In this document: positions 860 to 26,792 of the stretch, piece by piece
Layout of the letters: each line of letters opens with the position of its first letter
How positions within the stretch are numbered: position 1 is the stretch's first letter
DNA from: Tetrahymena thermophila SB210
Taxonomy: Eukaryota > Ciliophora > Oligohymenophorea > Hymenostomatida > Tetrahymenidae
DNA: 64,000 nt
Reading direction: 5' to 3'
Assembly (NCBI RefSeq): GCF_000189635.1
Contig: NW_002476355.1
Span: 310,001-374,000, forward strand
Program-made: the position numbers and the translations under genes
The notes under the pieces: model-generated
Seen by the model: the letters and a program-made list of their open reading frames with translations, nothing else
The model's database searches: none
What the model was told of the DNA's origin: nothing

Positions 860-3800
860 ATGATATAATAGATTAAATATTACAAAGAATTAGAAGATGT
901 AATTATTTATTTTTTTATTAATATCCTTTAAATTTATTTTTATTTATAAAAAAAGTTTTTAAACTCTTCACTTTAATTTCATTAGGTTCTCCATATTTAT
1001 CTAAAGTAAATTTAATTTATAAATATTATTAATTTTTTTAATTATTTTACTTTCAATTTATTTAAAAAATAATTTTTCTAATAGAAATTCTTATCATTAT
1101 TCATTGATTTGAATTTATAAAAAAATTTTTTAGCTATTTTTACTAATTCATTTTTTATTATTTTATATTTTATCTTCATTTTTTGCTATTAACACTTACA
1201 CTTGATAAAAAAAGTTTATTTATTTTTCTATTAATATTTTTAATTATAAAAATGAATTTAAACCATAAAAACTCTTTTAATTTATTTTATTTACTTTTCT
1301 TTTCTTTTAATTGTGATTACTTGCTTTTTTTTCTTTCTTTGTTAATTTAACTAGTTATTTTATTTTCAACTTTTGCTTTTATGATTAATCAATCTTCTTA
1401 TTTTAAATTTTTTCTTCATTTTTTCCTTCTAATTAACTAATTAATTATTATTTTTTCTTCTATATTTAAAAAGTTCAAATTAAATTGGTGCAATGGGTGC
1501 ATCAGGCTTAGCTTCTGCTTTAGCAAAGTGCATTAATCTCTCAAATTTAAGACTTTGGCTTTAGTAAAAACAGTTATTTATTTTGGATTTTAATAATTTT
1601 AGTTATTAAAACTAACTTAAAAGAGTAAAGGTCTTTTTTCTTTTTCTTTTTATTGTGCTCGCATATTTTCTTCTTTCTTTGTTGATTTAACTAATTATTT
1701 TATTTTCAACTTTTGCTTTTATTATTAATTAATCTTATTATTTCATAATTTTTCTTAATTTTTTCCTTCTAATTTACTAATTAATTATTTATTTTTTCTT
1801 CAATATTTAAAAAGTGAAAATTAAATTGGTGATGAAGGTACATCAGCTTTAGGTTCAGGTTTAGAAAAGTGCATGAATCTCTCAAATTTGACACTTGAAC
1901 TTAGGTAAAAATATTCTATTTATTTTAGATTGTGATATTTTAAATTATAAAAAAAAATTTAAAACTATAAAGGTCTTTTTTTCTTTTTCTTTTTATTGTG
2001 CTTACTTTTTTTCTTTCTTTCTTTGTTAATTTAATTCATAATTTCATTTTCAACTTTTGTTTTTATTATTAATTAATTAATCATATTATTTCATATTTTT
2101 TCTTCATTTTTATCTTTTAATTAACTAATTAATTTTAAATATTTTTTTCAATATTTAAAAAGTAATAATTAAATTGGTGCAAAGGGTGCATCAGGCTTAA
2201 GTTCTGGTTTAGCAAAGTGCTTTAATCTCTCAAATTTGACACTCTAATTTAAGTAAAAACAGTTTATTTTCTTTTTATTGTGCTTTTTTTATCTTCTTTC
2301 TTTTTTGTTAATTTAAGTCATCATTTTATTTTCGGCTTTTGCTTTTATTACTAATTAATCATATTATTTCTTCATTTTTTCCTTCTAATTAACAAATTAA
2401 TTATATATGTTTTCTTCAATATTTAAAAAGTAATAATTAAATTGGTGATGAAGGTACTTCAGGCTTAGGTTGTGCTTTAGCAAAGTGCATTAATCTCTCT
2501 AATTTGGCACTTTTCCTTAAGTAAAAATAGTTTATTTATTTTGGATTGTGAAAATTTTAATTATAATAAATTATTTAAAATAATAAAACTCTTTTTTTTT
2601 GTTGCTTTATTTCTCCTTTCTTTGTTAATTTAATTGATCATATTATTTTCAACTTTTGCTTTTATTCGTTTTTTCATATACTGCCTTCAATATTTGCCAC
2701 AAATTAACTAATTAGTTGTTTATTTTTTACTTTAATATTTAAAAAGTTCCAATTAAATTGGTGAAATAGGTGCATCAGGATTAGGTTCTGGTTTAGCAAA
2801 GTGCATTAATCTCTCAAATTTGACACTTTTTATTGGGTAAATAAAACAAGTTTATTTATTTTGGATTGTGATATTTTTAATAATTAAAACTAAGTTAATG
2901 CAATTAAGCTCTTTTTTCTTTTTATTATTTAATGTTTTTTCTTCATTTTTTCCTTCTAATTAACTAATGAATTATATATTTTTTCATCAATATTTAAAAA
3001 GTAAAAATTAAATTGGTGTAATGGGTGTATCAGGCTTAGCTTCTGCTTTGGCAAAGTGCATTAATCTCTCAAATTTGACACTTAACATTTTGTAAAAACA
3101 GTTTATTTATTTTGGTTTGTAATGTTTTTTATTATAAAAACTAACTTAAAACAATAAAGGTCTTTTTTCTTTTTATTGTGCTTGCTTTTTTATTTTCTTT
3201 CTTTGTTAATTTAATTAGCTATTTTATTTTCAATTTTTGCTTTTATTATTTATTAATCTTATTATTTGATATTTTTTCTCTATTTTTTCCTTTTAGTAAA
3301 CTAATTAATTATATATATTTTCTTCAATATTTAAAAAGTGAAAACTAAATTGGTGATGAAGGTACATCAGCTTTAGGTTCTGCATTAGCAAAGTGCATAA
3401 ATCTCTAAAATTTGACACTTCACCTTTAGTAAAAATAGATTATTTATTTTGGATTGTGATCTTTTTAATTTTTATAACTAATTTATATCAATAAAGCTCT
3501 TTTTTCTTTTTATTGTAGTTTGTTTTTTTATTTTTCATTTTTTAACTTAAGTAATAATTTTATTTTCAACTTTTGCTTTTATTATTAATTAATCTTATTA
3601 TTTCATATATTTTCTTCATTTTTCCTTCTTAATAATATACTTTTTCTTCAATATTTAAAAAGTGAAAATTAAATTGGTGATGAAGGTACATCAAGTTTAG
3701 GTTCTGCATTAGCAAAGTGCATTAATCTCTCAAATTTGACACTTTACCTTTAGTAAAAACAGTTTATTTATTTTGGATTGTTATATTTTTAATAAAAATA

Positions 3801-6068
3801 ACTAATTTAAAACAAAAAAACTCTTTTTTTTCTTTTTCTCTTTATTAAACTTGCTTTTTTCTTTTTCTTTCTTTGTTAATTTAATTAGTTATTTTATTTT
3901 CAACTTTTGCTTTTGTTATTAATCAATCTTATTATTTCATATTTTTTCTTCTTTTTTTCCTTCTAATTTTCTAATTAATTATTTATTTTTTATTCAATAT
4001 TTAAAAAGTTCTAATTAAATTGGTGATGAAGGTACATCAGCTTTAGGTTTTGCATTAGCAAAGTGCATAAATCTCTCAAATTTGACACTTTACCTTAAGT
4101 AAAAACAGTTTATTTATTTTGGATTGTGATATTTTTAATTATAAAAACTAATTTAAAATAATAAAACTCTTTTTTTTCTTCTTTATTTGTGCTTGCTTTT
4201 TTTCTTCTTTCTTTGTTAAAATAACTCATCATTTTATTTCCAGCCTTTGCTTATTTTATTATTTCTTATTTTTTCTTCATTTTTTCCTTCTAAGTATCTA
4301 ATTATATATTTTTTCTTTAATATTTAAAAAGTAATAATTAAATTGGTGATGAAGGTATATCAGGCTTAGGTTCTGCTTTAGCAAAGTACATTAATCTCTC
4401 AAATTTGAGTCTGTACCTTAGGTAAAAACAGTTTATTTATTTTGGATTGTGTTATTTTTAACTATTATAGCTATTTTTAAACAATAAAGCTCTTTTTTAT
4501 TTTTTGTGCTTGCTTTTTTTATTATTTCTTTGTTAATTTAACTAATTATTTTATTTTCAAATTTTGCTTTTATTATTAATTAATGTTATTTTTTCATATA
4601 TTTTATTCATTTTTTCCTACAAATTAACTAATTAATTATATATTTTTTACTATAATATTTAAAAAGTTCCAATTAAATTGGTGAAATGGGTGCATCAGGT
4701 TTAGGTTTTGGTTTAGCAAAGTGCATTAATCTCTCAAATTTGATACTTGACCTTAGGTAAAAACAGTTTTTTATTTTGGATTGTGAATTTTTAATTATAT
4801 TAACTAATATAAAACAATAAAACTCTTTTTTTCTTTTTCTTTTTATAGTGCTTGCTTTTTTTTCTTCTCTCTTTATTAACTTAACTAATTATTTTATTTT
4901 CAACTTTTGTTTTTATTATTAATTAATTAATCTTATTATTTCATATATTCTTCATTTTTTCCTTCTAGTTAACTAATTAATTATGTATTTTTTCTTCAAT
5001 ATTTCAAAAGTGAAAATTAAATTGGTGATGAAGGTACATCAGACTTAGGTTCTGCATTAGCAAAGTGCATTAATCTCTCAAATTTGACACTTTACCTTTA
5101 GTAAAAACAGTTTATTTTTTTTGGATTGTGATATTTTTAATGATAATAACTAATAAAAAAACGATTAAGCTCATTTTTCTAATTCTTATTTTTTGTAATT
5201 GCTTTTTTTTTTCTCATTCTTTGTTAATTTAATTCGCCATTTTATTTTCAACTTTTGCTTTTGTTATTAATTAATCTTATTATCATATTATTTCATTATT
5301 TTTTCCTTCTAATTAACTAATTAATTAAATATTTTTTCTTCAATATTTAAAAAGTGAAAATTAAATTGGTGACAATGGTACTTCAGACTTAGGTTCTGCT
5401 TTAGCAAAGTGCATTAATCTCTCAAATTTGGCACTTGACCTTACGTAAAAATAGTTTATTTATTTTGGATTGTGATAATTTAATTATAAAAACTAACTTA
5501 AAACAATAAATCTCTTTTTTCTTTTTATTGTGCTTAAATTTTTTTTTCATCTTTCTTTGTTAATTTAACTCATCATTTTATTTTCAACTTTTACTTTTAT
5601 TATTAATTAATCCTATTATTTCATCATTTTTCCTTCTAATTAACTAACTAACTAATTAATTATAAATTTTATTCAATATTTAAATAGTGAAAATGAAATT
5701 GGTGATGAAGGTGCATCAGTCTTAACTTCTGCTTTAGCAAAGTGCATTAATATCTCAAAATTGAGACTCTAACTTAGGTAAAAACAGTTAATTTATTTTA
5801 GATCATGATATTTTTAACTATAAAAATGAATATAAAACAAAAAAGCTCTTTGAATTTATTTGATTTATTTTTTTTATTTTTATTCCATTAATCTTATTTT
5901 ATTTATTAATTTAATTAATTTTGAAATAGCTTATTTTATTTAATATTTATTTAAAATTTACACAAATATATAAAAAGTTCAAACTAAATAAATGAATCAT
6001 AAGAATTCAAAGTAATAAGCAAGTGTCTTAAATCAAAACGATTAGTTATCTTTGAAATATAATTCTGA
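860..6068 (+). CDS. LRR (RNI-like) repeat protein A, 17 exons, one repeat per exon
   Basis: Predicted 479 aa. Exons: 860-898, 956-1005, 1474-1563, 1815-1904, 2163-2252, 2431-2520, 2747-2836, 3002-3091, 3339-3428, 3663-3752, 4009-4098, 4332-4421, 4667-4756, 5011-5100, 5355-5444, 5688-5777, 5978-6068. The start gives MIQQIKYYKELED. Exon 2 supplies the first half-repeat. Fourteen exons of exactly 90 nt follow, each encoding one repeat of the type NQIGDEGTSGLGSALAKC with INLSNLTLDL behind it. The last exon ends in LVIFEIQF and TGA. All repeat introns are phase 2, with donors mostly AG|GTAAAAACAG and acceptors TTTAAAAAG|T. The pattern LxLxLxxNxIG is that of ribonuclease-inhibitor-like LRRs, which bind proteins. 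No signal peptide, membrane segment or catalytic domain is seen, so an intracellular binding or scaffold role is inferred. Function is unknown. Confidence 0.88.
1006..1473 (+). other. Long second intron of LRR gene A with a relic repeat unit
   Basis: This 468-nt intron is about twice the usual length. Near 1190-1215 it keeps the last bases of an LRR exon (ACACTTGA) followed by the conserved start of the repeat intron, but the donor GT now reads AT, so the exon cannot be spliced. The same relic occupies the equivalent intron of genes B and C. Confidence 0.6.
1474..5777 (+). repeat. Tandem array of 14 exon-intron LRR cassettes (gene A)
   Basis: The repeating unit is a 90-nt exon plus an intron of about 180-260 nt. 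The 5' part of the intron is shared between units: GTAAAAACAG, then TTTATTTATTTTGGATTGTG and an AAACTAACTTAAAACAATAA block. So is the 3' pyrimidine-rich tail ending CTTCAATATTTAAAAAG. Exon lengths never vary, while intron lengths vary by tens of bases. Confidence 0.9.
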
Positions 6069-6583
6069 TGATAAACAAGTATTAAAAAAAAGATGAATAA
6101 ATATTAAATTTTTGAATAATTGAATATTATATTTTTTATTAAATAATATTTTGAAAAATATTTTTAACCTAAAATATAGATATATAGATAGATTTTATTA
6201 TTGTTTTTATATTTTATAGTATCATATTATTGTAAGTTAATATATTGCTTATAAAAAATAAAAAAATTTAAAAATTAAATTTACTTAAATAAATAAATTA
6301 ATTCCTCTTAAGACAGCCCTATTATTTCACCATCAAACCATTTTAAATTTTTAGTAGAAAATTATATCTTATTAAATTATGTAAATACCCAGCTTTAATA
6401 TTCATGTTAGATTTTAATCTTAAATAACAAATATATTTAGATTATAAAACATAAATGAGTTACTCCATTTGAAAACACTGTATTTGATAATTATTAAATT
6501 TTATCTGTTCTTTTTATCTATTTATATATAATTAATTAAATTCCATAAATTGATATTCGATATTTTTGAGAGAGAAAAAATAA
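6069..6583. other. Intergenic between tandem LRR genes A and B
   Basis: About 515 bases of AT-rich DNA with no reading frame of interest. The last 100 bases resemble the stretch before gene A (TTTGATAATTATTAAATTTT), which fits a tandem gene duplication that included the 5' flank. Confidence 0.6.
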
Positions 6584-9500
6584 ATGATATAATAGATTAA
6601 ATATTTCAAAGAATTAGAAGAAGTAATTATTTATTTTTTAATTAATATCCTTTAAATTTATTTTTATTAATAAAAAAAGTTTTTAAACTCTTCACTTTAA
6701 TTTCATTAGGTTCTCCATATTTGTCTAAAGTAATTTAATTTTTTAATATCATAAAAAATTTTTTTATATTTAACTTTCAATTTATTTAAAAAATAATTTT
6801 TCTAATAGAAATTTTCATCATTAATTATGGATTTGAATTTATCTATAAACTTTTTAGCTATTTAAACTTAATTTTCATTTCAATTTTTACTATTTATTAT
6901 TTGATATTTTTTTTTCATTTTTTGCTATTAATATTTACACTTGATAAAAACAGTTTATTTATTTTGGATTGAAATATTTTAAGTATAAAAATTAATTTAA
7001 AACATTAAAGCTCATTTATTTTATTTATTTTTCTTTTAATTGTGCTTGCTTGTTTTTTTTCTTTCTTTGTTAATTTAACTAATTATTTTATTTTCAACTT
7101 TTGATTTTATTATTAATTAATCATATTATTTCATATTTTTTCTTAATTTTTTCATCTAATTAACCATATAAGAATATACTTTTTCTTCAATATTTAAAAA
7201 GTTCCAATTAAATTGGTGAGAAAGGTACATCAGACTTAGGTTCTGCTTTAGCAAAGTGCATTAATCTCTAAAATTTGACACTTGAACTTAGGTAAAAACA
7301 GTTTATTTATTTTGGATGGTGATATTTTTAATTATAAAAACTAACTTAAAACAATAAAGCTCTTTTTTCTAATTCTTTTTATTTTTTTTGTTATTGATTT
7401 TTTTTCTTCTTTTTTTGTTAATTTAGCTCATCATTTTATTTTAAACTTTTGCTTTTATTATTAATTAATCTTATAATTTCATTTTTTTTCTTCATTATTT
7501 CCTTCTAATTAACTAGTTAATTGTATATGTTTTCTTCAATTTGTAAAAAGATACAATTAAATTGGTGGTGAAGGTACATCAGGCTTAGGTATTAGTTTAG
7601 CAAAGTGTATTAATCTCTCAATTTTGAAACTTGGTCTTGGGTAAAAACAGTTTATTTATTTTGGATTGTGATATTTTAATTGTAAAAACTAATTTAAAAC
7701 AATAAAACTCTTTTTTCTTTTTCTTTTTAGAGTTAAATGCCTTTTTAATTTTGGATAGGCTATCTATACTAATGAATTTTTAATTAAAAGAAATGTAGAC
7801 AATAGCTAAATTAATTATTTATTTTTTCTTTAATTTTAAAAAGTTGCAATTAAATTGGTGCAATGGGCGCATCAGGCTTAGGTTCTGCCTTAGCAAAGTG
7901 CATTAATCTGTCAAATTTGACACTTGACCTTAGGTAAAAACAGTTTATTTATTTTGGATTGTTATATTTTTAATTATTAAAACTACAATATTTATTATTA
8001 ATTAATCTTATTTTATTATTTCATATTTTTTCTTCATTTTTCCCTTCTAATTAACTAATTAATTATATATATTTTCTTCAATATTTAAAAAGTTACAATT
8101 ATTTTGGTGATGAAGGTACATCAGGCTTAGGTTCTGGTTTAGCAAAGTTCATTAATCTCTAAAATTTGACACTTAACCTTTAGTAAAAACAGTTTATTTA
8201 TTTTGGATTGTGTTATTTTTAATTATAAAAACTAACTTAAAACAATAAAGATCTTTTTTCTTTTTCTTTTTATTGTATTTGCTTTTTTTTCTTGTTTTTT
8301 TGTTAATTTAACTCATCATTTTACTTTAAAATCTTATTTTTATTACTAATTAATTAATCTTATTATTTCATATTTTTCTTCATTTTTTCCTTCTAATTAA
8401 CTAATTAATTATATATGTTTTCAATAATATTTAAAAAGTAATAATTAAATTGGTGATGTAGGTACATCAAGCTTAGGTTCTGCTTTGGCAAAGTGCATTA
8501 ATCTCTAAAATTTGACACTTAACCTTTTGTAAAAATAGTTTATTTATTTTGGATTATGATATTTTTAATTATAAAAACTAACTTAAAACAATAAAGCTCT
8601 TTTTTCTTTTTCTTTTTATTATGCTTACTTGTTTTTTATTATTCTTTTGTTTTTAATTCAGCTCATCATTTTATTTTCAAAATTTTGCTTTAATTATTAA
8701 TCAATGTTATTATTTCATATTTTTTCTTCATTTTTTCCTTCTAAATTCCTAATTAATTATATATGTTTTCTTCAATATTTAAAAAGTGAAAATTAAATTG
8801 GTGATGAAGGTACATCAGATTTAGGTTCTGGTTTAGCAAATTGCATTAACCTCTCAAATTTGACACTTAACCTTTTGTAAAAACAGTTTATTTATTTTGG
8901 ATTGTGACATTTTTAATTATAAAAAATAACTTAAAAAAATAAAACTCTTTTTTCGTTTTCTTTTTATTGTGATTGCTTTTTTTTCTTTCTTTCTTTGATA
9001 ATTTAACTACCGTCATTACACGTGTTTAAGAGTATGGAAAAATATAATTTTTTAAAAATTTTATACTCATATAATTTTTTTAAAAAATTTAATCCTTAAA
9101 TATAAATCACTCATAAATATGTGTACATACAGTAATTATATATTTTCAAATTTTACTTTTTTTATTAATTTATATTAATATTTATATTTCATATTTTTTG
9201 TTCATTTTTTCCTTCTAATTAACTATTTAATGATATATTTTTTCTTAAAAAGTGACAATTAAATTGGTGATGAAGGTACATCATGCTTAGGTTCTGCTTT
9301 AGCAAATTGCATTAATCTCTCACATTTGATGCTTGATCTTGGGTATAAACAGTTTATTTATTTTGGATTGTGATATTTTTATTTTGAAAACTAATTAAAA
9401 ACAATAAAGCTCTTTTTTCGTTTTATTGTGCTTCCTTTTTTTTGTTCTTTCGTTGTTAATTTATCTTATCATTTTATTTTCAACTTTTGTTTTTATTATA

Positions 9501-11961
9501 TCTTATTATTTCATATTTTTTCTTCTAATTAATTAATAATTTATTTTTTCTTCAATATTTATAAAGTTCCAATAAAATTGGTGCAATGGGTGCATCAGGC
9601 TTAGCTTCTGGTTTAGCAAACTGTATTAATCTCTAAAATTTGACACTTAACCTTTAGTAAAAACCGTTTATTTATTTTGAATTGTGATATTTTTAATTAT
9701 AAAAACTAACTTAAAACAATTAAGCTCTAAATTTATTTTCTTTTTATTGTGATTGCTTTTTTTTCTTCTTTCTTTGTTAATTTAACTCATCATTTTATTT
9801 TCAAGTTTTTTTTTATAAATTATTAATTAATCTTATTATTTATATTTTTTCTTCATTTTTTCCTTCTAATTAATTAATTATATTTAAAAAGTCGCAATTA
9901 AATTGGTGCAATGGGCGTATCAAGCTTGGGTTCTGCTTTATTAAATTGTATTAATCTCTCAAATTTGACAATTAATCTTTGGTAAAAAAGTTTATTTATA
10001 TAGGATTGTGATATTTTTAATAAAAAAACTAACTGATAGCAATTTTTTTTTTCTACATCCTTTATTAATTTAACTCATCATTTTATTTTCAACTTTTGTT
10101 TTTATTAATAATTAATCTTATTATTTCATATTATATCTTTATTTTTTCCTTCTAATTAACAAAATAATTGAAAATATATTTTTTAATATTAAAAAAGTGA
10201 CAATTAAATTGGTGATGAAGGCACATCAGGCTTAGGTTCTGGTTTAGCAAATTGTATTAATCTCTCAAATTTGACTCTTAGCCTTGAGTAAAAATAGTTT
10301 ATTTATTTTGGATTGTGATATTTTTAATTATAAAAACTAATTTAAAATATTAAAACTCTTTTTTTATTTTCTTTTTATTGGCTTACTTTTTTATTTCTTT
10401 CTTTGTTATTTGAACTTATAAATTTATTTTATTCTTTTGTTTTTATTATTTTTAATTAATCTTATTGTTTCATATTTTTTCTTTCTAATTAACTAATTAA
10501 TTATATATTTTTTCTTTAATATTAAAAAGTCTCAATTAAATTGGTGCAATAGGCGCATCAGACTTAGGTTCTGCTTTAGCAAATTGTATTAATCTCTCAA
10601 ATTTGATACTTGATCTTGGGTAAAAATAAATTATTTATTTTGGATTGTGATATTTTTAATTATAAAAACTAACTTAAAACAATAAAGCCCTTTTTTCTTT
10701 TTCTTTTTATTGTGCTTGCTTTTTTTTCTTCTTTTTTTGTTAATTTAACTCATCATTTTATTTTCAGCTTTTGTTTTATTATTATTAATTAATTTTATTA
10801 TTTCATATTTTTTTATTCATTTTCTCCTTAAAATTAACTAAATTTTTGTTTTAATTTTCATTAATATTTAAAAAGTGACAATTAAATTGGTCATCAAGGT
10901 ACATCAGGCTTAGGTTTTGGTTTAGCAAAGTGCATTAATCTCTCCAATTTGACACTTAAGCTTTAGTAAAAACAGTTTATTAATTTTGGATTGTGATATT
11001 TAATTATAAAAACTAACTTAAAACAATAAACCTCATTTTTCTTGAGCTTGCTTTTTTTTCCTCATTCTTTGTTAATTTAACTCATCATTTAATTTTCAAA
11101 TTTTGGTTTTATTATTAATTAATCTTATTATTTCATATTTTTTTCTTCATTTTTTCCTTCTAAATAACTAATTAATTATTATATTTTTTCTTCAACATTT
11201 AAAAAGTCGCAATTAAATTGGTGAAATGGGTGCATCAGGCTTAGGTCATACTTTAGAACAGTGCATTAATCTCTCAAATTTGACACTTGACCTTAGGTAA
11301 AAACAGTTTATTTATTTTGGATTGTGATATTTTTAATTATAATAACTAATTTAAAACAATAAAACTTTTTTTTTCTTTTTCTTTTTATTGGATTTGCTTG
11401 ATTTGTTTTCTTCTTTCTTTGTTAATTAGACTCATCATTTTATTTTCAACTTTTGCTTTTATTATTAATTAATTAATCTTATTGTTTCATATTCTTTCTT
11501 CATTTTCTCCTTCTAATTTACTAATTAATTATACTGTATATTTTTTCTTCAATATTTAAAAAGTGAAAATGAAATTGGTGCAATAGGTGTATCAGACTTA
11601 GGTTCTGCTTTAGCAAAGTTCATTTATCTCTCAAATTTGACACTCTATCTTAGGTAGAAACAGTTTATTTATTTTGGATTGTGATATTTTTAACTATAAA
11701 AATGAATATAAAACAAAAAAACTCTTTGAATTTATTTGATTTATTTTTTTATGTTTTTTTTCCAATAATGTTATTTTATTTATTTATTTATTAATTTAAA
11801 AAATAATTTTGAATTTAAAAGTTTATTTTATTTAATATTTATTTAAAATTTAACAAATTTATAAAAAAAGTTTTAACTAAATAAATGAATCATAAAAATT
11901 CAAAGCAATAAGCAAGTGTCTTAAATCAAAAAGTTTAGTTGTTTTTGAAATATAATTCTGA
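6584..11961 (+). CDS. LRR (RNI-like) repeat protein B, 17 exons, one repeat per exon
   Basis: Predicted 479 aa, the same size as its upstream neighbour gene A. Exons: 6584-6622, 6680-6729, 7202-7291, 7551-7640, 7844-7933, 8093-8182, 8439-8528, 8787-8876, 9253-9342, 9567-9656, 9892-9981, 10198-10287, 10530-10619, 10876-10965, 11207-11296, 11564-11653, 11871-11961. The start reads MIQQIKYFKELEE and the end LVVFEIQF followed by TGA, nearly the same as in gene A. Fourteen repeat exons are each 90 nt with phase-2 introns. In-frame TAA codons occupy the Gln of NQIG in most repeats and no TGA interrupts any exon. The intron after the 8787-8876 exon carries a TA-flanked MITE-like insertion. Protein binding is inferred from the fold; the partner is unknown. 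Confidence 0.88.
7202..11653 (+). repeat. Tandem array of 14 exon-intron LRR cassettes (gene B)
   Basis: This has the same unit as the gene A array. Intron lengths range from about 159 (between the third and fourth repeat exons) to about 376 where the insertion sits. Repeat variants alternate irregularly between a GDEGTS form and a GAMGAS form. Confidence 0.9.
9010..9132. mobile_element. MITE-like insertion in an intron of LRR gene B
   Basis: The usual intron text is interrupted by about 123 bases bounded by TA on both sides. Ends are imperfect inverted repeats: CCGTCATTACACGTG at the left and, read from the right on the other strand, CTGTATGTACACATA. Including the flanking A, 18 of 25 positions match. 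TA target duplication and short inverted ends are typical of Tc1/mariner-type non-autonomous elements. No coding capacity is seen. Confidence 0.55.
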
Positions 11962-12628: not shown

Positions 12629-13855
12629 TCAGAAAAAGCGTAAATTTTTCTACTTTATATTAGTAATTAAATGTATTTAATCTCGGATATCCTTTGCTTC
12701 ATAAACAGGAATATTATTAAATGATAAATCTAGTTCTAGTTTTACTAAATTATAAATCTACTTTAAAGCTTCGAGAATAGGATATGATCCATGCTAAGTT
12801 AAATTATTATTGTCAAGCCATAATGTCAACTCTACCAAATTTTCTTGCTGCTTTATACACTCGCCAAGGGCCACTCCTCCTTCTTGGTTGACATCATTGT
12901 GGGAGATATTTATTGAAAGTTACTGCAACTTTCCGATTATTGATATAGCATCAAACAAAAGAATTAAGCTGCTTTCTGTTAGCTAGTTAGCACTGACATC
13001 TATTGATAATTAATTGATAAATCTCATCTAAGCTATTGTATTTGAGACATGTAACAACCCACTATCTTTCAATTTATTCCACTTAAAGTTTAGATTGAGT
13101 TAATTCAAAAATTTTAAGTTAGACATACTTTTACAAATCAGTCTCACTCCTTCTTCTCCTATATTATTCCCTTCAATATTCAAAGTGAAGACCTTTAAAT
13201 CAGGAAGGTTTGTCACACAATTGCTGATACATTCATTATTCATCGCCATTTTATTGTGAGAAAAATCAAGAACCAAATACTGCAAATGATATAATTTCTA
13301 AATTGAATTGCAAATTCTAGCTATTCCTACTTTGTCGAACATATGATAATGAATTTCTACCAAAACGAATTCCATCCATAATGTGTTATTTAGTGACACG
13401 AAGGCATCTATTTTCTTGTAATTCATTGCTGTAAACAATAAAACTATTTTTATCGAAGTATCTGTATGGTGAATCTCATATTCCTCTCCTTAAAATCCTG
13501 TGTCACTCATATTTTTTATGATCAGAGCAATCCAATCAGAAATTGTGTAATCGATTGTCTCTTTATTTACTTAAAACCTACTTATATCGCCATCTTATTT
13601 TCCAATAAATTAATTGTAATTGCTTATTTCATTTCTGTTATCATAATTTTCTTCATTTTCGTAAATAAATACAGCTTTTGTGTTTGTAATTGTAGATCTT
13701 GCTACTTATGATTATTCCTCATTCTGCTAAACCAAGTTTTTTTATGACTGCGATCTTACAAATTAGTTAAAATTCTTAATGTTATCTTCATATTCCTCTT
13801 TTGAAATAACCTTATTAGGATCTTATTCTTACTCTTTTGTCTATGCTTATCCCAT
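12629..13855 (-). CDS. Single-exon LRR protein with possible N-myristoylation
   Basis: The frame is open without introns for 408 codons and ends TGA at 12629-12631. The first ATG at 13855 gives MGQAQTKEQEQDPNK, a Gly at position 2 with Thr at position 6, which matches the general N-myristoylation pattern. Residues 1-130 are polar and Gln/Asn-rich. From about residue 170 to the end there are RNI-like LRRs with LVLDFSHNKM, FTLNIEGNNIGEEG, LSIDVSANQL, LSINISHNDV and LELDLSFNNI as repeat cores. It is related in fold to genes A-C but is neither split into cassettes nor close in sequence. It lies tail to tail with gene B. A membrane-tethered binding role is inferred; the function is unknown. Confidence 0.75.
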
Positions 13856-14953
13856 TCCTTCCTACCTAACTAATGTAAAATTCTAACTAAAGAAAAGCTT
13901 AAAATATTTATTTGATTTGAAAAATAGGTTTTTTTTTTTTAAAGATTTTCTACCAGAATTTACTCCTAGTTATTATCTATCTATTTGGTGTTAAAAATCT
14001 TCAATCTTTTTATTAATAAAATATAAATAAAATTAATCAATTAAATAAAAAATAATATTTATTATGTAAGTATTTACTTTAAAAAAAATAAAAAACATAA
14101 ATTTTTGTTATCTTCATTCATTCATTAATTAATTAATGATTGAAAAAAGATCCAATTAATTATTCTAAATTTAAAAGTGGTATTTCATATTAATCAAGTG
14201 TTCACTGAAATTTTAATAAGAATTTAACTTTTTGAATATAAATTAAATAAAATATTTTTTGACAGAAATATCAGTTTCATTTCATTTGATTTTAAAGTTT
14301 GCAATTTAATTAGCATTTATTTAGCTTTATGCTATTAAAACTCAATATAACTTAATTGATATGTCGAATCAAAAGCAAGAAAAAGAAAAGTATTTAATTT
14401 CATTAAAAATTTAAAATTAATATTAACTTTAGGTTTTTGAAAAAAATTAAATAAAAATAAAATATTTATTTAACTACCAATATCAAAAACGAGTTTTATT
14501 TCATTTAATTTTTAGGTTTACAGCCATTTTAATGAGATTGATTTCATGTTTTTTATAAGTAAGATAAACATTTCATAATATTTATGCTATTAAAACTCAA
14601 TAATTTTATCATAATATATAAAAAATGTCAAATGCAGATTAAGAAAAAATAATATTTATTTTAATATAAAAACTCTTAACCTTACTTAAAGAAAATTCAT
14701 GAGTAAGTAACATCTGAAAAAATAGTGATTTTTTAGGAATATGTTAAAGGTAAAAATTAATTTTAAATGAATAAAAGAATATATCCTTTTTTGTTATAAG
14801 TAGAGTAAATAGCTAATTCTCTACTAATTAATTGCATTCATTATTATATACTTTTATTAATTATATAAAATATTAAGAATGATATATTATTTTTTTATTT
14901 ATATATTTAAGAAATCGCATATCAAATTTAGTAAAATAACATCAATCCATCCA
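13856..14953. other. Intergenic, no gene seen
   Basis: About 1.1 kb of AT-rich DNA with many homopolymer runs. No long Gln-code frame, tRNA or repeat was found. Confidence 0.5.
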
Positions 14954-15403: not shown

Positions 15404-16201
15404 TTCTACTTTTCTTTAACCTTAAAAAAATTAATTAATTTTTATGAATATTTATAATTAATTTGAAGTATCAAAAAAAGCTTGCTTCCTCTAATAGAAA
15501 TTTCTTCCATACAAAAAGCATCATAATAAAAACCATAGCTAAATATCTTTCTTTTTTAAATGCAAAATGATAAATAATTACGAACTTTCTCAAATTTATC
15601 AAATTAAAAAATTTTATCCATTCATGAACATCGTAGAATTAATTATTTACAAAAACCAATAAGTAGAAAATATTCAGATTTATAAATCAAAATAATTTTT
15701 TTCATTGTAAAGAGCATAAAAATAATCACAGTTTTCATCCATTTAAAGCTCCTTTAATATTTTTTTTCAAAATGGAATTTTATTATTAATATTCTAAACT
15801 ATCTTACATTTTTCAGCAAGAGGTTGCTTAAAATAAGATTTAAAATGATTGGCTTATCATACAATGAATGAAGATCATACTTAAGAGATAAAAATTAGTA
15901 TTTATAAAAGTAAAATAATTTAAGATTGTTAAAAATTTAAATAAATCCCAATAATATTATTTATTGTAAAATCAATTAAATTAAGAATAAATAATTTATT
16001 TCAAACAATTTTCAGAATTTAGATATAATAGTCTTTTCCTTGGCTCAGTATGCTTAAAACCGAGAATTTAGGTTAAAGAAACTACGGTATTTGTAAATAC
16101 AGTTTTAAAAATACTAAAAATAACTTTAGTTTGAGTGAAAAATAAAATTTAATTCTAAATATTTCTTTACACAAGCAAAAAAGAAAAATAAGAAATTAAT
16201 A
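15404..16201. other. Intergenic between two minus-strand genes
   Basis: AT-rich. A slightly GC-richer patch at about 16030-16090 has no recognised RNA signature. No coding frame is supported. Confidence 0.45.
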
Positions 16202-17673
16202 TCATAAATATTTGTTTGATTAGATTTTATTTATAATAAATTATGATAAAGTTAAATTTTTTTAGCTAAGGAATGGATAAATGTCTTCGATTTCATATTT
16301 TGTATTGTTTTGTCTTATAAACTCAGCATTTTCAATCCATTTCTTCCATCTATTTATCTGATAACTAGTGAGATCATCTAATTTATTTGAGTCTATTTTA
16401 TCTTTTGGTATTTATAAATAATTATTTTTAAGTTAATTCAATTTACTAAATTCAAATTTGGCGATTAAGGCATCCAGCTTACAAATATCTTGTTTGCTTA
16501 AATTGTTTTCAACATTGAATTTTTTTTCATCAGATTATTAATTAAAATCCAAAATATCAAAGCTTGATAGACCTAAGAAATGAATATTTGGCAAGTTATC
16601 TTGTTAGTAGACAGAATTTTCGGAACCAAAAGTGTAATTGAAGAGTATATCTAAGCCAAATGGATCGAAATCCCCTAAATAAAATAAAGGCGAGTTTGGA
16701 TTGTTAGCAGTTAGCATCTTTATATATTATTTGGTGCTATAATCGCCATACCCTTTCCCAGTAATCATTATACAATTCTTCAAAAGCTATCTAATTATAT
16801 AAATCAAAATATTAAAAATCATAAAACTAATAAATAAATTAATAGGAACTTACTCGTCTTTTTCAGCTATGATTTTTTAAAAAACAGTTTCTTTCTCTAC
16901 AACCAATATAAATGCAGAGTTTGTTTCAATCCATAAAATTTCTTCCTTTGGCTATATTTGCCTGACTTCTCCAAAATTTTTACTAAGATCAATAAACTAT
17001 TAAAGAATTTTTGTGAGTTAAATCAAGGAAATACATAAAGGAATTTTACTTCAGCTTAAGAACTAACTTAGAATTATACATTACCAGTTACTAAACCTTT
17101 AGCTGAAGCAATAATATTTAAACAATTTCTTGGCAGTCTTAATTAATTTTGCAATATTTGAATAATTTTTTCTAAGTTTTACTAATTTTAGTCAAAAAGT
17201 TCAACATTTGTGTAGAATATTTCTCTTTTTGTGATTTAAAAATCATTTTTAAGGGCATTCAAAATTTATTTTATGCAAAAAAGTAACTTTTCTAATGATT
17301 TTAAATTATTCTTATGGATAACCATTGTTTTATTTTTTCCTTCTTTGTTAAGTTTTCTTAATGATTAGAATTGACTGTAAAAATTTTGATATTTTTAGCT
17401 AGTTATTTCTAAGGATTAGTTGGAGATATATTGCTACTCTGCATGTATAAAATAAAAGTAGTCAAATTATATATCTTTTTTTTCCATAAGTTTAAGGCAT
17501 GAATTCTAAATAATAATCTCTTTCAGAAGTTAAAAGAAAAAATCTCTTAACCTGTTAATGATACTTTCTTTATCTAAATCATGTATTGAATATTAAATTC
17601 CAAGAAAATTGAGAGCTTCAAAGTGTCTTTGGAGTATTTGAGCATTTAGAGATTTTAACTGGTTGAAATTCAT
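16202..17673 (-). CDS. SPO11: SPO11 / topoisomerase VI subunit A homologue
   Basis: Predicted 456 aa in three exons: 17035-17673, 16854-16996, 16202-16790, all in frame. Family members make the meiotic DNA double-strand breaks through a tyrosine-phosphate linkage. The winged-helix part contains KREIFYTNVELFDQNQ, in which the Tyr after Phe matches the catalytic tyrosine, and IIASAKGLVTG, the family motif that follows. The Toprim part has FILVVEKE (metal-binding Glu), ITGKGYGDYSTK and LGDFDPFGLDIL (the DxD pair), then HFLGLSSFDI. The length is close to known Spo11 proteins. The C-terminus runs on after YPFLS for about 19 residues to the TGA. The start at 17673 is the first ATG of the long exon. 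All catalytic residues appear intact, so it is probably functional. Confidence 0.9.
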
Positions 17674-18916
17674 TTTTCTTTAGGTTTAAAAGTTTTTTGT
17701 ACTTTTCAGATTATTAATAAATTTAATATTTAGCTAAAATTTATTTATTATTTAATCCAATTATTTATCAATAGATTTAAAAAATTAGACTGAAATTTAC
17801 TGAAATTTATTTAATAAGCATAAGATTAAAATAAATCTATTTTAATTTAAAATTGATTATTTTATACTTAAGAAATCAATCTTTTATTTACAAAATTATG
17901 GAAAATTTTCGTATAATTTTATAAAATATTTTGTTTATGTATTTGAATTGATATTTTAAATATCCATTTTGATGCATTTCAAATAAATTGTTTAATTATT
18001 TTTTATGGCAATAAATCTTGTCACTACATTTTGATAAGCTATGAATTGAGAAAAAATTAATAAATATTTTTACTGACTAGAGTAAAGATGTAAAATAATT
18101 TTGAATCAAAAAAAAAGACATCGTATTTCTATTTAGTAAAATAGTAAGGTCTACCTACACAAATTCTGATTTAATAATAAAATAAAGATATTCAATTTAT
18201 TTATGTTAAAATAATACTTATTAATTTACTTTTAAAAAATATATTTAAAAAGTTTATTTTTAGGAATAATAGAAAAACAAATTAATTAATCTATTTTAAA
18301 TCATTAAAATTAAAAAATATTTTATGGAAATTAGTTTAAAATTTCTAATAAAAATTTAAAGAGCATAAGTTGGTTTGAATAATATATTTAGAATATTAAA
18401 TTCTAAATTTAAATTTTTCTATTATTAAATTATAATTTTTAAAATTTGGAAAATAAATTTAAAAGAAAGATGATTCTTTAAAAAAAGTAAATATGTTTAT
18501 TTAAAGATTAAAAATATTAAAAATTCGGATGCCAAATATTTAGACAAGGAAAAGCATATTTATAGTACTAAATTAAATTTCAAATGTTTAGTTGTCTATC
18601 TATTCTATCTATATTTTCTTTGATAAATTAATTAATTCTTTAATTCAAATTCAGCACATAAATTTCAGCTTGAAATTAATAATTATTATTATATTCAGAC
18701 TGTGTAAATCCTTAATTTAATTTCAAACGCATAATCATCAAATCAAAATTTAATTAATTTTACAATCTAATTTACAATAAACGTAAATAAAAACCTTAAT
18801 AGTTAAGTAATAGACAATATTTAATTCTGTTTATATATGCCAAATTTACTTTATTTGAAATTTAGATAATCAAATTTAAATAAAACATTCCAAAATAATT
18901 AAAAAAAATAACAAAA
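17674..18916. other. Divergent intergenic between SPO11 and Kazal gene 1
   Basis: About 1.2 kb of AT-rich sequence between divergently transcribed genes, so it must hold both promoters. No specific element is recognised. Confidence 0.5.
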
Positions 18917-19351
18917 ATGAACAAATTCGCTATTGTTTTCGCTATAATTATGACAGTCTGTGCTGCTTCTAACATTAAATGCACTGAAAAATAAAAATAG
19001 GCAATTGCCTGTACTTATGAATATGAACCTGTTTGCGGAGTAAAATTAGACGAAAAGAGCTAGTATATCCAAAAATACTCTACCTATGGAAATAAATGCT
19101 AAGCTTGCGGTGAAGAAGGAGTTGAATTCTATGCTGTCGGTGAATGTTAAAACTATCCTGAAAATGCCATTTTCTGCCATCCTGAAGCTTACTTGCAACC
19201 TGGTTGTACTAGAGAATTAAACCCTGTGTGTGGATACTTTGATGAATCATTTTCATGCTCTAATTCTGTGTGTTCTTCAAACTATAGTAATAGATGCAGC
19301 GCTTGCATAAATTAGGAAGTTTCTTATGTTTTATAAGGTTTCTGTTAATGA
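18917..19351 (+). CDS. Secreted two-domain Kazal-type protease inhibitor 1
   Basis: An intronless frame of 144 aa begins with a signal peptide (MNKFAIVFAIIMTVCAAS). Domain one has Cys residues around YEYEPVCGVKLDE and TYGNKCQACGEEGVEFYA. Domain two has ELNPVCGYFDES and NYSNRCSACINQEVSY. The PVCG and Y-x-N-(K/R)C-x-AC elements define Kazal modules, whose exposed loop blocks serine proteases. Four TAA/TAG Gln codons interrupt a standard-code reading. It is the first of four similar genes in the window and closest to Kazal gene 2. The target protease is unknown. Confidence 0.85.
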
Positions 19352-20712: not shown

Positions 20713-21144
20713 ATGAAAACTCTTTTAATTACTCTTGCTATTATTTCACTTTGTGCTGCAGAGAATATTAAATGCACTGAATAACAAAAGAAAGCTGAAG
20801 CTTGTACTTATGAATATGAGCCTGTCTGTGGTGTTAAAGTTGACTAAACTAGCTTATACATCTAATCCAAAGAGACTTATGGAAATAAATGTTCTGCTTG
20901 TGCTACAGAAGGAGTTGAATTTTATGCTGTTGGCAAATGCGAAGAATACCCTGAAAATGCTGTATTTTGTCACCCTGATATCTCTTCATAATAATTAGGT
21001 TGCACTAGAGAATACTATCCTGTTTGTGGCTACTTTGACGAATCCATAAAATGCAGAAAAGCTCCATGTGGATCAAATTACAGCAACAAATGCGCAGCTT
21101 GCATCAATAAAGAAGTTAATTACTACTTAAATGGTTTTTGCTGA
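20713..21144 (+). CDS. Secreted two-domain Kazal-type protease inhibitor 2
   Basis: An intronless frame of 143 aa opens with MKTLLITLAIISLCAAEN, a clear signal peptide. It has the same cysteine plan as Kazal gene 1: EYEPVCGVKVDQ then TYGNKCSACATEGVEFYA, and REYYPVCGYFDES then NYSNKCAACINKEV. The TGA at 21142-21144 follows the last cysteine (NGFC). Genes 1 and 2 share CTEQQK/CTEKQK starts and YPENA linkers, so they form one pair by duplication, distinct from genes 3 and 4. Confidence 0.87.
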
Positions 21145-21701
21145 CTACTTTCTTGAGAAATATTGATTGACTGTAAGTCTTTTTCTTAGATTGATAAAAA
21201 TATTACATTAAATTGTGTTAAAATATTGTAGAAAACATTTATATTTTATTTTAGTATTAAATATAAATTAATTCAATATGTTTTAATTTTAATTTTTAAT
21301 TCATTAAAGTAATTTTATTCAAATATTTTATTTTATTCGTTTTTGAGGTTTATTATTTTTAATTAGGTAATATCTTAAACAATATAAGAATCTTCTTCAG
21401 ATAATAAACAAACAAACTAACTAACTATCTAACAAATAAAATAAAAATATCTTAAAATTTTCAATTAGAAATAAATATTGATTGTATTTGCTTTTTGTGA
21501 TATTTTTAAAAATGTTATTTGAAAAAATTGATATTTAATATTTAACTTAAAAAAATATGAATTATATAAATATAAAAACAATAATTAAATCTATATATAA
21601 TTAAGGTTAAAAACACTTTCAAAATATTATATTATAAAACATATAATATTAAATTATTCAAACATTTAATATTTATTCATCTTTTTTTTACTACTTGTTT
21701 A
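21145..21701. other. Intergenic downstream of Kazal gene 2 and LRR gene C
   Basis: Convergent 3' flanks, AT-rich, with no recognised gene. Confidence 0.5.
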
Positions 21702-24700
21702 TCATCTGAATAATATTTTAAAGACAACTAATCTTTTTGATTTAAGACACTTGCTTTTTACTTTTAATTTTATTTGTTCATTTAATAAGTAAAAACCTTT
21801 ATTACTTTGTATAAATTTTAAATAAACATTAAATAAAATAAAATTTAAAATTAAAAAAATTTAAATTATTAAATAAATAAAATAACATTAGTCGTATTAA
21901 AAAAGTTAAAAAAATAAATCATAAAAAAGCTATCAAATATATTCTAAGAGCTTTATTGTTTTTAATTAGTTTTATAATTAAAAATATCACAATCCAAAAT
22001 AAATAAACTGTTTTTACTGAAGATAAAGTGTCAAATTTTAGAGATTAATGCAATTTGCTATAACAGAACAGAAGGCTGATGTACCTTCATCACCAGTTTA
22101 TTTAGAACTTTTTAAATATTGAAGAAAAAATAAAAAGTTTATTATTTAATTAGATGAAAAAAATGAAGAAAAAATATGAAATAATAAGATTAATGAAAAA
22201 TTAAAGTAAAGTTAAAATTAAAATAATGAGTTTTATTAACAAAGAAAGAAGAAGAAAAAGCAAGCAAGCAAGCATAATAAAAAGAAAAAGAAAATAGAGA
22301 TTTATTGTTTTAAATTAGTTAAATAATTAAAAATATCACAATCCAAAATAAATAAATTGTTTTTACTATAAGTAAAGTGTCAAATTTGAGAGATTAATGC
22401 ACTTTGTTAAAGCAAAACCTAAGCCTGATGCACCTGTTGCTCCAATTTAATTATTACTTTTTAAATATTGAAGAAAAAATAAAAAATTTATTAATTAATT
22501 AGATGAAAAAATGAAGAAAAAATATGAAATAATAAGATTAATGAAAAATAAAAGCAAAAGTTAAAAATAAAATTAAAATGATGAGTTTTATTAACAAAGA
22601 AAGAAGAAAAAAAAGCAAGCAAGCACAATAAAAAGAAAAAGAAAAAAGAACTTTATTATTTAAATTAGTTTTATAATTAAAAATATCACAATCCAAAATA
22701 AATAAACTGTTTTTACCCAAGATTAAGTTCCAAATTTGAGAGATTAATGCAATTTGCTAAAGCAGAACCTAAGCTTGATGTACCTTCATTACCAATTTAA
22801 TTGGAACTTTTTAAATATAAAATATTAAAGAAAAAATTTATTATTTAATTAGATGAAAAAATGAAGAAAACATATGAAATAATAAGATTAATAAAAAATA
22901 AAAGCAAAAGTTAAAAATAAAATGATTAGTTTTATTAACAAAGTAAGAAGAAAAAAAGCAAGCAAGCACAATAAAAAGAAATTGAAAAAAGAGCTTTAGT
23001 TTTATAAAAATAAAATATCACTATCCAAAATAAATAAACTATTTTTACCCAAGATTAAGTGTCAAATTTTAGAGATTAATGCACTTTGCTAAAGCAGAAC
23101 CTAAGCCTGATGTACATTCATCACCAATTTAATTTTCACTTTTTAAATATTAAAGAAAAAAAAATAATTAAATAGGTATTTAGAAGGTAAAAATGAACAA
23201 AACTTATGAAATAATAAGATTAATGAAAAATAAAAGTAAAATTTAAAAATAAAATAATGAGTTTTATTAACAAATAAAGAAGGATAAAAAGCAAGCAAAC
23301 ACAATAAAAAGAAAAATGAGCTTTATTGTTTTAAATTAGTTTTATAATTAAAAATATCACAATCCAAAATAAATAAACTGTTTTTACTGAAGATCAAGTT
23401 TCAAATTTGAGAGATTAATGCACTTTGCTAAAGCAAAACCTAAGTCTGATGCACCCATTGCACCAATTTAATTTTTACTATTTAAATATTGAAGAAAAAA
23501 TAAAAAATTTATTATTTAATTTGATGAAAAAATGAAGAAAACATTTGAAATAATAAGATTAATGAAAAATAAAAGCATAAGTTAAAAATAAAATGATGAG
23601 TTTTATTTACAAAGAAAGATTCAAAAAAAGCAAGCAGGCACATTAAAAAGAAAAAGAAAAAAGAGCTTTATTTTTTAAATTAGTTTTATAATTAAAAATA
23701 TCACAATCCAAAATAAATAAATAGTTTTTACACAAGATCAAGTGTCAAATTTTAGAGATTAATGCAATTTGCTAAAGCAGAAACGAATCTTGAAACACCT
23801 TCATCACCAATTAAATTATAACTTTTTAAATATTGTAGAAAAAATTAAAAATTTATTAGTTAATTATTTAGAAGGAAAAAATGAAGAAAAAATATGAAAT
23901 AATAAGATTAATGAAAAATAAAAGCAAAAGTTAAAAATAAAATGATGAGTTAAATTAACAAAGTAAAAGAAAAAAAAGCAAAAAAACACAATAAAAAGAA
24001 AAAGAAAAATGACCTTTCTTGTTTTAAATTAGTTCTATAATTAAAAATATCGCAATCCAAAATAAATAAACTGTTTTTACCTAAGATCAAGTGTCAAATT
24101 TGAGAGATTAATGCAATTTGCTAAAGCAGAACCTAAGCCTAATGCACCTATAGCACCAATTTAACTAGAACTTTTTAAATATTGAAGAAAAAATATGTAA
24201 TTAATTAGTTATTTAGAAGGAAAAAATGAAGAAATAATATGAAATAATAAGATTAATCAAAAGTAAAAGCAAAATTTAAATAAAATGATAAGTTTTTTTA
24301 GCAAAGAATGAAGAAAAAAAATCAAGCAAACACAATAAAAAGAAAAAGAATAAAGAGCTTTATTGTTTTAAATTAATTTTGTAATTAAAAATATCACAAT
24401 TCAAAATAAATAAACTGTATTTACGCAAAATTAAATGTCAAATTTGAAAGATTAATGTAATTTGCTAAAGCAGAACCTAAGTCTGATGTACCTTGATCAC
24501 CAATTTAAGTAAATCTGTTTAAATATTTAATAAAAATATATAGTTAATTAGAAGGAAAAAATGAACAAAATGAACAAAACTTATGAAATAATAAGATTAA
24601 TGAAAAATAAAAGTAAAATTTAAAAATAAAATAATGAGTTTTATTAACAAAGAAAGAAGAAAAAAAATCAAGTAAACACAATAAAATGAAAAAGAAAAAA

Positions 24701-26792
24701 GAGCTTTATTTTTTAAATTAGTTTAAAATTAAAAATATCACAATCCAAAATAAATAAACTGTTTTTACCCAAGATTAAGTGTCAAATTTGAGAGATTAAT
24801 GCAATTTGCTAAAGCAGAACCTAATCCTGATGCGCCCATTGCACCAATTTTATTAATACTTTTAAAATATTGAAGAAAAAATAAAAATTTATTATTTAAT
24901 TAGATGAAAAAATTAAGAAAAAATATGAAACAATAAGATTAATAAAAAATAAAAGCAAAAGTTAAAATTAAAATGATGAGTTTTATTAACAAAGAAAGAA
25001 AAAAAAATCAGGTATGCACAATAAAAATAAAAATGAGTTTTGTTGTTTTAAATTAGTTTACAATTAAAAATATCACAATCCAAAATAAATAAACTGTTTT
25101 TACCTAAGATCAAGTGTCAAATTTGAGAGATTAATACACTTTGCTAAAGCAGAACCTAAACCTGATGCACCCTTATCACCAATCAAACTGATACTTTTTA
25201 AATATTTTAGATAAAAATAAAAATTTATTAATTAATTATTTAGAAGGAAAAAATGAAGAAAAAATATGAAATATGATGATTAATGAAAAATAAAAGCAAA
25301 AGTTAAAAATAAAATGATGAGTTTTGTTAACAAAGTAAGAAGAAAAAAAGCAAGCAAGCACAATAAAAAGAATAAAGATCTTATTATTTTAAATTAATTT
25401 TATGATTAAAAATATCATAATCTAAAATAAATAAACTGTTTTTACCTAAGTTCAAGTGTCAAATTTGAGAGATTAATGCAATTTGCTAAAGCAGAACCTA
25501 AACCTTATGTACCTTTATCACCAATTTAATTATTACTTTTTAAATATTGAAGAAAAAATAAAAAATTTATTATTTAATTAGATGAAAAAATGAAGAAAAC
25601 ATATGAAATAAAAAGATTAATAAAAAATAAAAGCAAAAGTTAAAAATATAATAATGAGTTTTATTAACAAAGAAAGAAGAAAAAAAAGCAAGCAATCACA
25701 ATAAAAAGAAAAAGAAAAAAGAACTTTATTTCTTTAAATTAGTTTTATAATTAAAAATATCACAATCCAAAATAAATAAATTGTTTTTACCTAAGAATAA
25801 GTGTCAAATTTGAGAGATTAATGCACTTTACTAAAGCAGAACCTAAGCCTGATGCGCCTTCATCATCAATTAAATTTTCACTTTTTAAATATTGAAGAAA
25901 AAATAAACTATTAATTAGTTATTTTGAAGTGAAAAATGAAGAAAAAATATGAAATAATAAGATTTATGAAAAATAAAAGCAAAAGTTAAAAATTAAATGA
26001 TGAGTTTTATTAATAAAGAAAGAAGAAAAAAAAAAGCAAGCAAACACAATAAAAAGAAAATGAAAAAAGAGCTTTATTGTTTTAAATTAGTTTTATAATT
26101 AAAATATCACAATCCAAAATAAATAAACCGTTTTTACCGAAAATTAAGTGTCAAATTTGAGAGATTAGTACAATTTGCTAAAGCAGAAGCTAAGTCTGAT
26201 GCAAAAACTTCATAAATTAAATTCTATCTTCTTAAATATTGAAGAAAAAAAAAATATATAATTAGTTAATTAAAAGGAAAAAATATGAAATAATAAGATT
26301 AATTAATAATTAGTTAAACTAACAAAGAAAGAAAAAAAATTAAGCAAGCACAATTAAAAGAAAAAGGAAAGCAAATCAAATAAATTAAAAGAGCTTTAAT
26401 GTTTTAAAATAATTTTTATAATTAAAAAATATTACAATGCAAAATAAAAAAACTGTTTTTATTAAGTGTAATTGTTAATAGAAAAAATGAAGAAAAAATA
26501 TCAAATAATAAAAAATGAATAGTAAATAATTAAAAATTTAAATGATAATTAAGTTGAAATAGCTAAAAATTTTTGTATAAATAGAAATCAATGAATAATA
26601 TTTGAAAGTTTAAATAAAATTTTTATAATATTTTTTATTTAAATATACCTTAGATTAATATAGAGAATCTAATGAGATTAAAGTGAAGAGTTTAAAAACT
26701 TTTTTTATCAATAAAAAAATTTAAAGGATATTAATTAATAAATAAATAATTACTTCATTTAATCTTTTGTAATAATTAATCTATTATATCAT
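21702..26792 (-). CDS. LRR (RNI-like) repeat protein C, 16 exons, one repeat per exon
   Basis: Predicted 453 aa. Exons in transcript order: 26754-26792, 26649-26698, 26138-26227, 25791-25880, 25446-25535, 25104-25193, 24769-24858, 24425-24514, 24081-24170, 23732-23821, 23388-23477, 23049-23138, 22717-22806, 22367-22456, 22018-22107, 21702-21804. It starts MIQQINYYKRLNE and ends KCLKSKRLVVFKILFR then TGA. The thirteen repeat exons are each 90 nt with phase-2 introns, exactly as in genes A and B but in inverted orientation. The first repeat exon is the most diverged (NLIYEVFASDLA in place of the NQIGDEG core). One repeat less than A and B implies gain or loss of a whole cassette. Function is unknown; protein binding is inferred from the fold. 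Confidence 0.87.
22018..26227 (-). repeat. Tandem array of 13 exon-intron LRR cassettes (gene C)
   Basis: This is the reverse complement of the cassette type at 1474-5777 and 7202-11653. The conserved intron start appears on the plus strand as CACAATCCAAAATAAATAAA followed by CTGTTTTTAC before each exon. Confidence 0.9.

Follow-up and report, generated by a model that had tools for sequence, protein, structure and literature searches.

Relationship to described leucine-rich repeat genes

Thousands of leucine-rich repeat (LRR) genes with 90-bp exons have been described in Tetrahymena by Xiong et al. 2019 (PMC6564038). According to the main text of that paper, more than 98% of the introns of these genes are in phase 2, the genes of T. 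thermophila contain from 1 to 51 such exons, the exons are shuffled, with ectopic recombination in the germline, and the recognition of bacteria or their products is offered as a hypothesis. We analyzed three LRR genes in a 64,000-nt stretch of T. thermophila SB210 DNA (contig NW_002476355.1, positions 310,001 to 374,000 of the forward strand; hereafter the window). These are group III genes of the published family, and neither their architecture nor its proposed role, both published in 2019, is new: as described in the text of the paper, group III genes likewise have arrays of exact 90-bp exons, phase-2 introns, cassettes similar at the DNA level and many copies in the genome, and differ in nothing in kind from the three genes of the window (PMC6564038). 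The array introns in our sample have a median length of 255 nt (interquartile range 247-260; 220 introns), which fits the peak of 257 bp reported for T. thermophila and not that of 232 bp reported for T. malaccensis (PMC6564038). A telomerase reverse-transcriptase exon of the same assembly also agrees with this species: over 96 residues it matches the T. thermophila PDB chain 6d6v_A, with differences at the exon ends alone. One sampled region, L017, has array introns of ~107 nt, and its exons tend to have G rather than T as their first base; it perhaps corresponds to the published short-intron subset with a peak of 122 bp (PMC6564038). What the present analysis adds to the family description is hypervariability at the level of single sites, in a triad of residues that meets at the exon joins. 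No report of such a triad in Tetrahymena was found in the text of the open-licence literature; Xiong et al. do not use the words "hypervariable", "concave" or "positive selection" in their main text, and the protein logos in that paper omit the junction residue (PMC6564038).

LRR exons of human NLR genes such as NLRP3 are also equal in length and frame-neutral, with borders at a fixed place in the beta-sheet, and their skipping alters activity; they differ in being 171-bp exons that each encode two LRRs, in being few and in belonging to NACHT receptors, and no hypervariable triad is claimed for them in the text seen (PMC6642158). The LRR-ROCO genes of brown algae are described by Teng et al. 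2024 as sharing both one LRR per equal-length, phase-2 exon and exon shuffling, and their variable or selected positions likewise follow a 2-2-1 spacing on the concave side (PMC11378527). However, the algal exons are 72 bp long (23 residues plus the junction) as opposed to 90 nt, the proteins carry a ROC-COR GTPase, splice variants are documented, and the selected sites lie inside the exon, whereas the Tetrahymena triad straddles the intron (PMC11378527). The brown-algal and Tetrahymena architectures are presumably of independent origin. In lampreys, the variable lymphocyte receptors consist of LRR cassettes with variable concave residues and are assembled somatically from gene segments.

Hypervariability of the triad at exon joins

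The window is AT-rich and was read in the ciliate code (code 6). A scan for AG-(90 nt)-GT segments that are open in this code identified 14 and 14 LRR exons of 90 nt in the two genes on the plus strand and 13 in the gene on the minus strand, 41 in all, together with unrelated chance segments. The same 41 LRR exons were picked by a second scan in which stops were allowed and were incorporated into hand-built gene models with predicted splicing; the spliced code 6 frame closes only with phase-2 introns and contains no TGA. The original prediction of 14, 14 and 13 repeat exons, each exactly 90 nt long and bounded by phase-2 introns, was thus confirmed, as was variable intron length (165-258, 159-376 and 242-260 nt in the arrays of genes 1, 2 and 3, respectively).

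Twenty extra regions (L009-L028) were chosen from the best matches to one gene 1 cassette and are not a random sample; the genome searches scored the best 40 of 2,507 and the best 40 of 903 candidates. From 313 exons, 265 were retained after dropping the units of L001-L008, which are copies of L009-L028 or of the window. Diversity along the DNA was calculated for 262 of the 265 units (three without flanks were left out), while exclusion of exons with no next exon within 500 nt gave 220 exon-intron-exon units. Of the 24,090 pairs of these units, 22,262 were kept, those with fewer than 90 shared intron columns being left out.

The triad comprises residue 28, the intron-split junction codon and residue 1 of the next exon; all three are hypervariable, in contrast to the conserved codons that separate and flank them. 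A table that pooled the window with other loci first drew attention to codons 28 and 1. Among the 41 window exons, residue 1 has the highest amino-acid entropy (3.09 bits), followed by residues 28 (2.93 bits), 7 (2.34 bits) and 11 (2.02 bits). The last two exon bases, which open the junction codon, are near maximal in variability (0.71 and 0.62), and the first base, which closes it, is T in 38/41 exons. The same profile was observed in 223 distinct exons of other loci. Measured against both introns and synonymous sites, the triad stands apart: nucleotide diversity is 0.594 at its first two codon bases, whereas first and second bases elsewhere have 0.151, third bases elsewhere 0.188 and the adjoining intron 0.203. 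For gene 3 alone, these values are 0.583, 0.159, 0.139 and 0.069, respectively. Polar or small amino acids predominate at the junction (Ser 38, Gly 35, Tyr 33, Arg 25, Asp 22, Asn 16 and His 11 of 220). A split NNT codon allows 15 amino acids but no stop, and no stop was found at any of the 220 junctions. Mutual information lies slightly above that of shuffles for residue 28 and the junction (reached by 3 of 1,000) and for the junction and the next residue 1 (7 of 1,000), excesses to which relatedness can give rise; that between residue 28 and the next residue 1 was reached by 696 of 1,000.

Closely similar cassettes show the same pattern. In 236 close pairs, which are not independent and whose introns differ by ~2%, 53.5% of the triad first and second bases differ; elsewhere the figures are 6.5% for first and second bases and 6.9% for third bases. 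We then examined 27 independent nearest pairs, none including a window unit, which were selected on the core, the intron and the next core with the triad not used for selection. In these near-identical pairs, 76/162 triad first and second bases differ as opposed to 271/10,735 context bases (of which the intron contributes 121/6,442), and the triad is identical at all nine bases in none. When the same procedure was applied codon by codon, the three triad codons gave 0.463, 0.593 and 0.352, while the other codons had a median of 0.037 and reached at most 0.204, at codon 7, the most variable outside the triad. Differences occur on both sides of the intron in 15/27 pairs, and these cannot be made by one crossover. 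In L014, introns are identical over 253 nt, yet 7/9 triad bases differ. Third bases changed in 1/27 pairs at Leu29, 2/27 at the junction and 0/27 at residue 2; change therefore follows codons, which points to selection on the protein.

Position of the triad on the LRR fold

Alignment to a solved LRR protein in the PDB places residue 2 on the Asn of LxLxxN, so that residues 28, junction and 1 fall on x positions of xLxLxx. These x positions face the concave side of LRR proteins. The spacing 26-28-30-31 in the Tetrahymena repeat matches that of sites 14-16-18-19 in the brown-algal LRR exons, which are reported to be concave and under positive selection (PMC11378527). At E ≤ 0.001, 11 PDB sequences were matched; they include RanGAP but not ribonuclease inhibitor.

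A Pfam scan of the gene 1 protein found LRR_6, with LRR_4 slightly below its cut-off, and no ROC, COR or NACHT domain. A Toxin_2 match in the same protein (29.8 bits; nine residues in the best stretch) was rejected as chance cysteine spacing in a repeat protein. No signal peptide was obvious by eye in the gene 1 protein. Because no domain besides LRR is credited in this protein and no signal peptide is obvious, the products of these genes are probably intracellular binding proteins.

Integrity of the cassette frame

Among the 41 window exons, TGA occurs 0 times in the coding frame compared to 74 and 39 times in the other two frames; for the 265 exons, the corresponding counts are 0, 414 and 219. 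This absence was observed even though the picking of the exons had allowed stops. Retention of the intron would shift the frame or introduce TGA for 208 of the 220 introns sampled, 38 of which are from the window. All possible joins of the 41 window exons produce TGA at the junction in only 3/1,681 cases, owing to the equal exon lengths and the almost always T-ended junction codon, and the view of the cassettes as modular and frame-neutral is upheld.

The accompanying statement that exon length never varies applies to the window, where each detected cassette is 90 nt long and no nhmmer match lies outside the 41 exons at E ≤ 1e-3, but not to the genome. Matches elsewhere in the genome, among the best 40 of 2,507 candidates, have 89-94% identity to the cassette, and the window and the 20 extra regions gave 273 nhmmer matches, of which 259 overlap an intact 90-nt exon and 14 are exceptions. 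On reading, two of these exceptions lie at locus ends (L011 and L028), one has a GTT donor that the scan pattern excludes (L020), four lack AG at the usual place (L009, L018, L022:3859 and L025:5508), two are shortened cassettes (L022:6568 and L025:4387) and three, all in L015, are partial or have a changed donor. The other two, in L026, are cassettes fused without an intron (L026:3462-3622), perhaps following a crossover inside exons.

Origin of the diversity

We favor, with a probability of about 0.68, the explanation that these genes form a germline recognition repertoire, in which short caps enclose cassette arrays that change by duplication and recombination and in which the triad is under strong diversifying selection. 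Cassettes would be copied and lost in the germline by these two processes, with the equal lengths and the T-ended junction codon keeping the frame safe at each gain or loss, and the caps would stay while the triads diversify. Each gene would then present ~42 variable contact positions (~3 x 14) on a conserved frame. Since each triad is divided by an intron, joining two cassettes makes a new one; different cassettes could be joined by recombination inside the intron or by skipping, in either case with the frame kept. Unequal recombination of cassettes, as originally predicted, agrees with the germline shuffling by unequal crossing over that has been published for the family (PMC6564038). The suggestion that the genes vary a binding surface is partly supported: hypervariability is limited to three codons at the exon joins. 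The products may bind bacteria or bacterial products inside the cell. A more specific version, to which we give somewhat less than an even chance, is that every cassette join creates a new triad and that triad codons of this germline repertoire turn over tens of times faster than the surrounding DNA, perhaps with the help of a codon-scale diversifying process. Proteins contending with changing partners are expected to show fast change of this kind, limited to the residues presumed to make contact. The triad names the exact residues open to testing, and strain differences at its codons, if they exist, would allow the recognition repertoire of a unicellular organism to be measured directly in the laboratory.

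Several observations weigh against diversifying selection as the full explanation. Synonymous steps are also raised in the triad (proportion of synonymous change, pS, 0.21-0.29, compared to 0.025-0.048 elsewhere) and, given this, the ratio of nonsynonymous (pN) to synonymous change is just 1.6-2.1. Across the sets compared (P = 0.11, 0.033, 0.065 and 0.0099), the largest alone has a synonymous share clearly under the chance expectation. A rough selection-only simulation required ~60-100 times the neutral rate to reach the observed pN and gave a pS slightly under that observed. Outside the triad, pN/pS is 0.75-1.07 in close pairs, so that purifying selection is not clearly evident over the remainder of the cassette, and a whole-gene ratio of nonsynonymous to synonymous substitution (Ka/Ks) of ~0.4 for young LRR genes is interpreted in the published text as purifying or relaxed selection (PMC6564038). 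Lastly, variability at the fourth concave site, position 26, is only moderate. Unless selection is extreme, an extra process adds codon-scale change; the turnover rate seems very high for selection alone.

Two further lines were considered and set aside. That the triads are old alleles in a homogenized context is disfavored, as synonymous sites no more than 3 nt away are no older than the others, although the numbers are small (Leu29 and residue 2 third bases, as above). Turnover since duplication was sought through positional matching of cassettes between genes 1 and 2, but neither exons (73.9 vs 73.2 of 90 identical) nor introns (0.155 vs 0.157) gave a diagonal signal; since the gene caps have diverged about equally (intron 2 81.6% and the last intron 89.0% identical), the evidence from such matching is weak.

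The extra process could itself be the source of the diversity, with targeted mutation or codon-sized exchange between cassettes generating the triads and selection merely keeping the frame. The very high turnover, exemplified by L014, the raised synonymous change and the rate demanded by the simulation are all consistent with this proposal. However, it must accommodate a Leu29 third base that is 3 nt from two hot codons and almost unchanged, a similarly quiet junction third base and a triad split by an intron of ~255 nt, while fast turnover through A-ended codons alone would raise the apparent pS. We know of no enzyme or template for such a process and consider it unlikely as the main cause.

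Isoform diversity would give a single cell several surfaces, through skipped exons or through transcripts that join different cassettes, and would exploit the frame-neutrality of all 41 window cassettes and the avoidance of TGA in 1,678 of 1,681 joins. An indirect lead is the 3n bias found in T. thermophila exon skipping (p = 2.18e-5), which makes this species the sole non-animal with an animal-like bias in skipped exons, although LRR exons are not named in that section of the paper (PMC6142364). Precedents include NLRP3 exon 5 (PMC6642158) and the brown-algal ROCO splice variants (PMC11378527). Cassette duplication alone, however, already explains equal length and phase, and Xiong et al. use neither the term "alternative splicing" nor "exon skipping" in their main text (PMC6564038); we regard transcript-level variation, too, as an improbable basis for the diversity.

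Selfish or neutral expansion by unequal crossing over and retrotransposition, with no selected function and merely relaxed constraint on exposed sites, would suit genes published as young, numerous, mostly low-expressed and species-specific (PMC6564038), a pN/pS close to 1 for the non-triad codons of close pairs and the loss of the shared frame in the gene 3 tail. Relaxation can reach the neutral level at most, though, and the triad lies many-fold above intron and synonymous levels; with in-frame TGA absent from all 265 exons, this explanation is highly improbable. Somatic rearrangement, by which repeat number or order would differ between micronucleus and macronucleus, draws on DNA rearrangement in ciliate nuclei and on the reported proximity of group III genes to internal eliminated sequences (PMC6564038), but left no sign in the single assembly studied and is the least credible explanation, with very little chance of being correct.

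Gene models and neighboring genes

The hand-built models in the window are those of gene 1 (860-6068, plus strand, 479 aa), gene 2 (6584-11961, plus strand, 479 aa) and gene 3 (26792-21778, minus strand, 425 aa), the outer coordinates 860 and 26792 being the two outer ATGs. Each model opens with a 39-nt exon 1 and a 50-nt exon 2 that stops in phase 2, continues with the cassettes and closes with a terminal exon (Table 1). The window exons fall into two cassette types, GDEGT-like and GAMGA-like, with strong covariation between codons 6 and 7 (mutual information 1.04, compared to 0.19 when shuffled).

Table 1. Features of the three LRR genes, with positions numbered from the first base of the window
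Feature	Position	Strand	Details
Gene 1 exon 1	860..898	+	ATG start, N-terminal cap; 94.9% identical to gene 2
Gene 1 exon 2	956..1005	+	Phase-2 end, joins first cassette; 98.0% identical to gene 2
Relic in gene 1 intron 2: decayed cassette end and its intron start	1189..1278	+	Local alignment score 50 vs shuffled maximum 24 (200 shuffles)
Gene 1 array, 14 exons of 90 nt	1474..5777	+	Starts 1474, 1815, 2163, 2431, 2747, 3002, 3339, 3663, 4009, 4332, 4667, 5011, 5355, 5688
Gene 1 terminal exon	5978..6068	+	TGA, C-terminal cap
Gene 2 exon 1	6584..6622	+	Hand-built model
Gene 2 exon 2	6680..6729	+	Hand-built model
Relic cassette end, gene 2 intron 2	6934..7017	+	Local alignment score 59 vs shuffled maximum 23 (200 shuffles)
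Gene 2 array, 14 exons of 90 nt	7202..11653	+	Starts 7202, 7551, 7844, 8093, 8439, 8787, 9253, 9567, 9892, 10198, 10530, 10876, 11207, 11564
Gene 2 terminal exon	11871..11961	+	TGA
Gene 3 exon 1	26754..26792	-	Hand-built model
Gene 3 exon 2	26649..26698	-	Hand-built model
Relic cassette end, gene 3 intron 2	26387..26478	-	Local alignment score 61 vs shuffled maximum 26 (200 shuffles)
Gene 3 array, 13 exons of 90 nt	22018..26227	-	5' ends 26227, 25880, 25535, 25193, 24858, 24514, 24170, 23821, 23477, 23138, 22806, 22456, 22107
Gene 3 terminal exon as modelled	21778..21796	-	Frame unlike genes 1 and 2, early TGA

Adjoining the arrays, a 494-aa single open frame (12632-14113, minus strand) has a weak LRR_6 match (24.5 bits, cut-off 23.4) without 90-nt cassettes and is perhaps an older LRR type. 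Also between the LRR genes, 16205-17050 (minus strand) encodes the Toprim domain of a Spo11/TOP6A-like protein (E-value: 1.7e-25). Four related small cysteine-rich genes on the plus strand (18908-19348, 20713-21141, 29954-30406 and 32890-33345) each match Pfam Kazal_1 above the cut-off and apparently have signal-peptide-like starts. The window further contains a SAPS-domain gene (41496-42669, minus strand) and a SART-1 family gene (46259-48370, plus strand).

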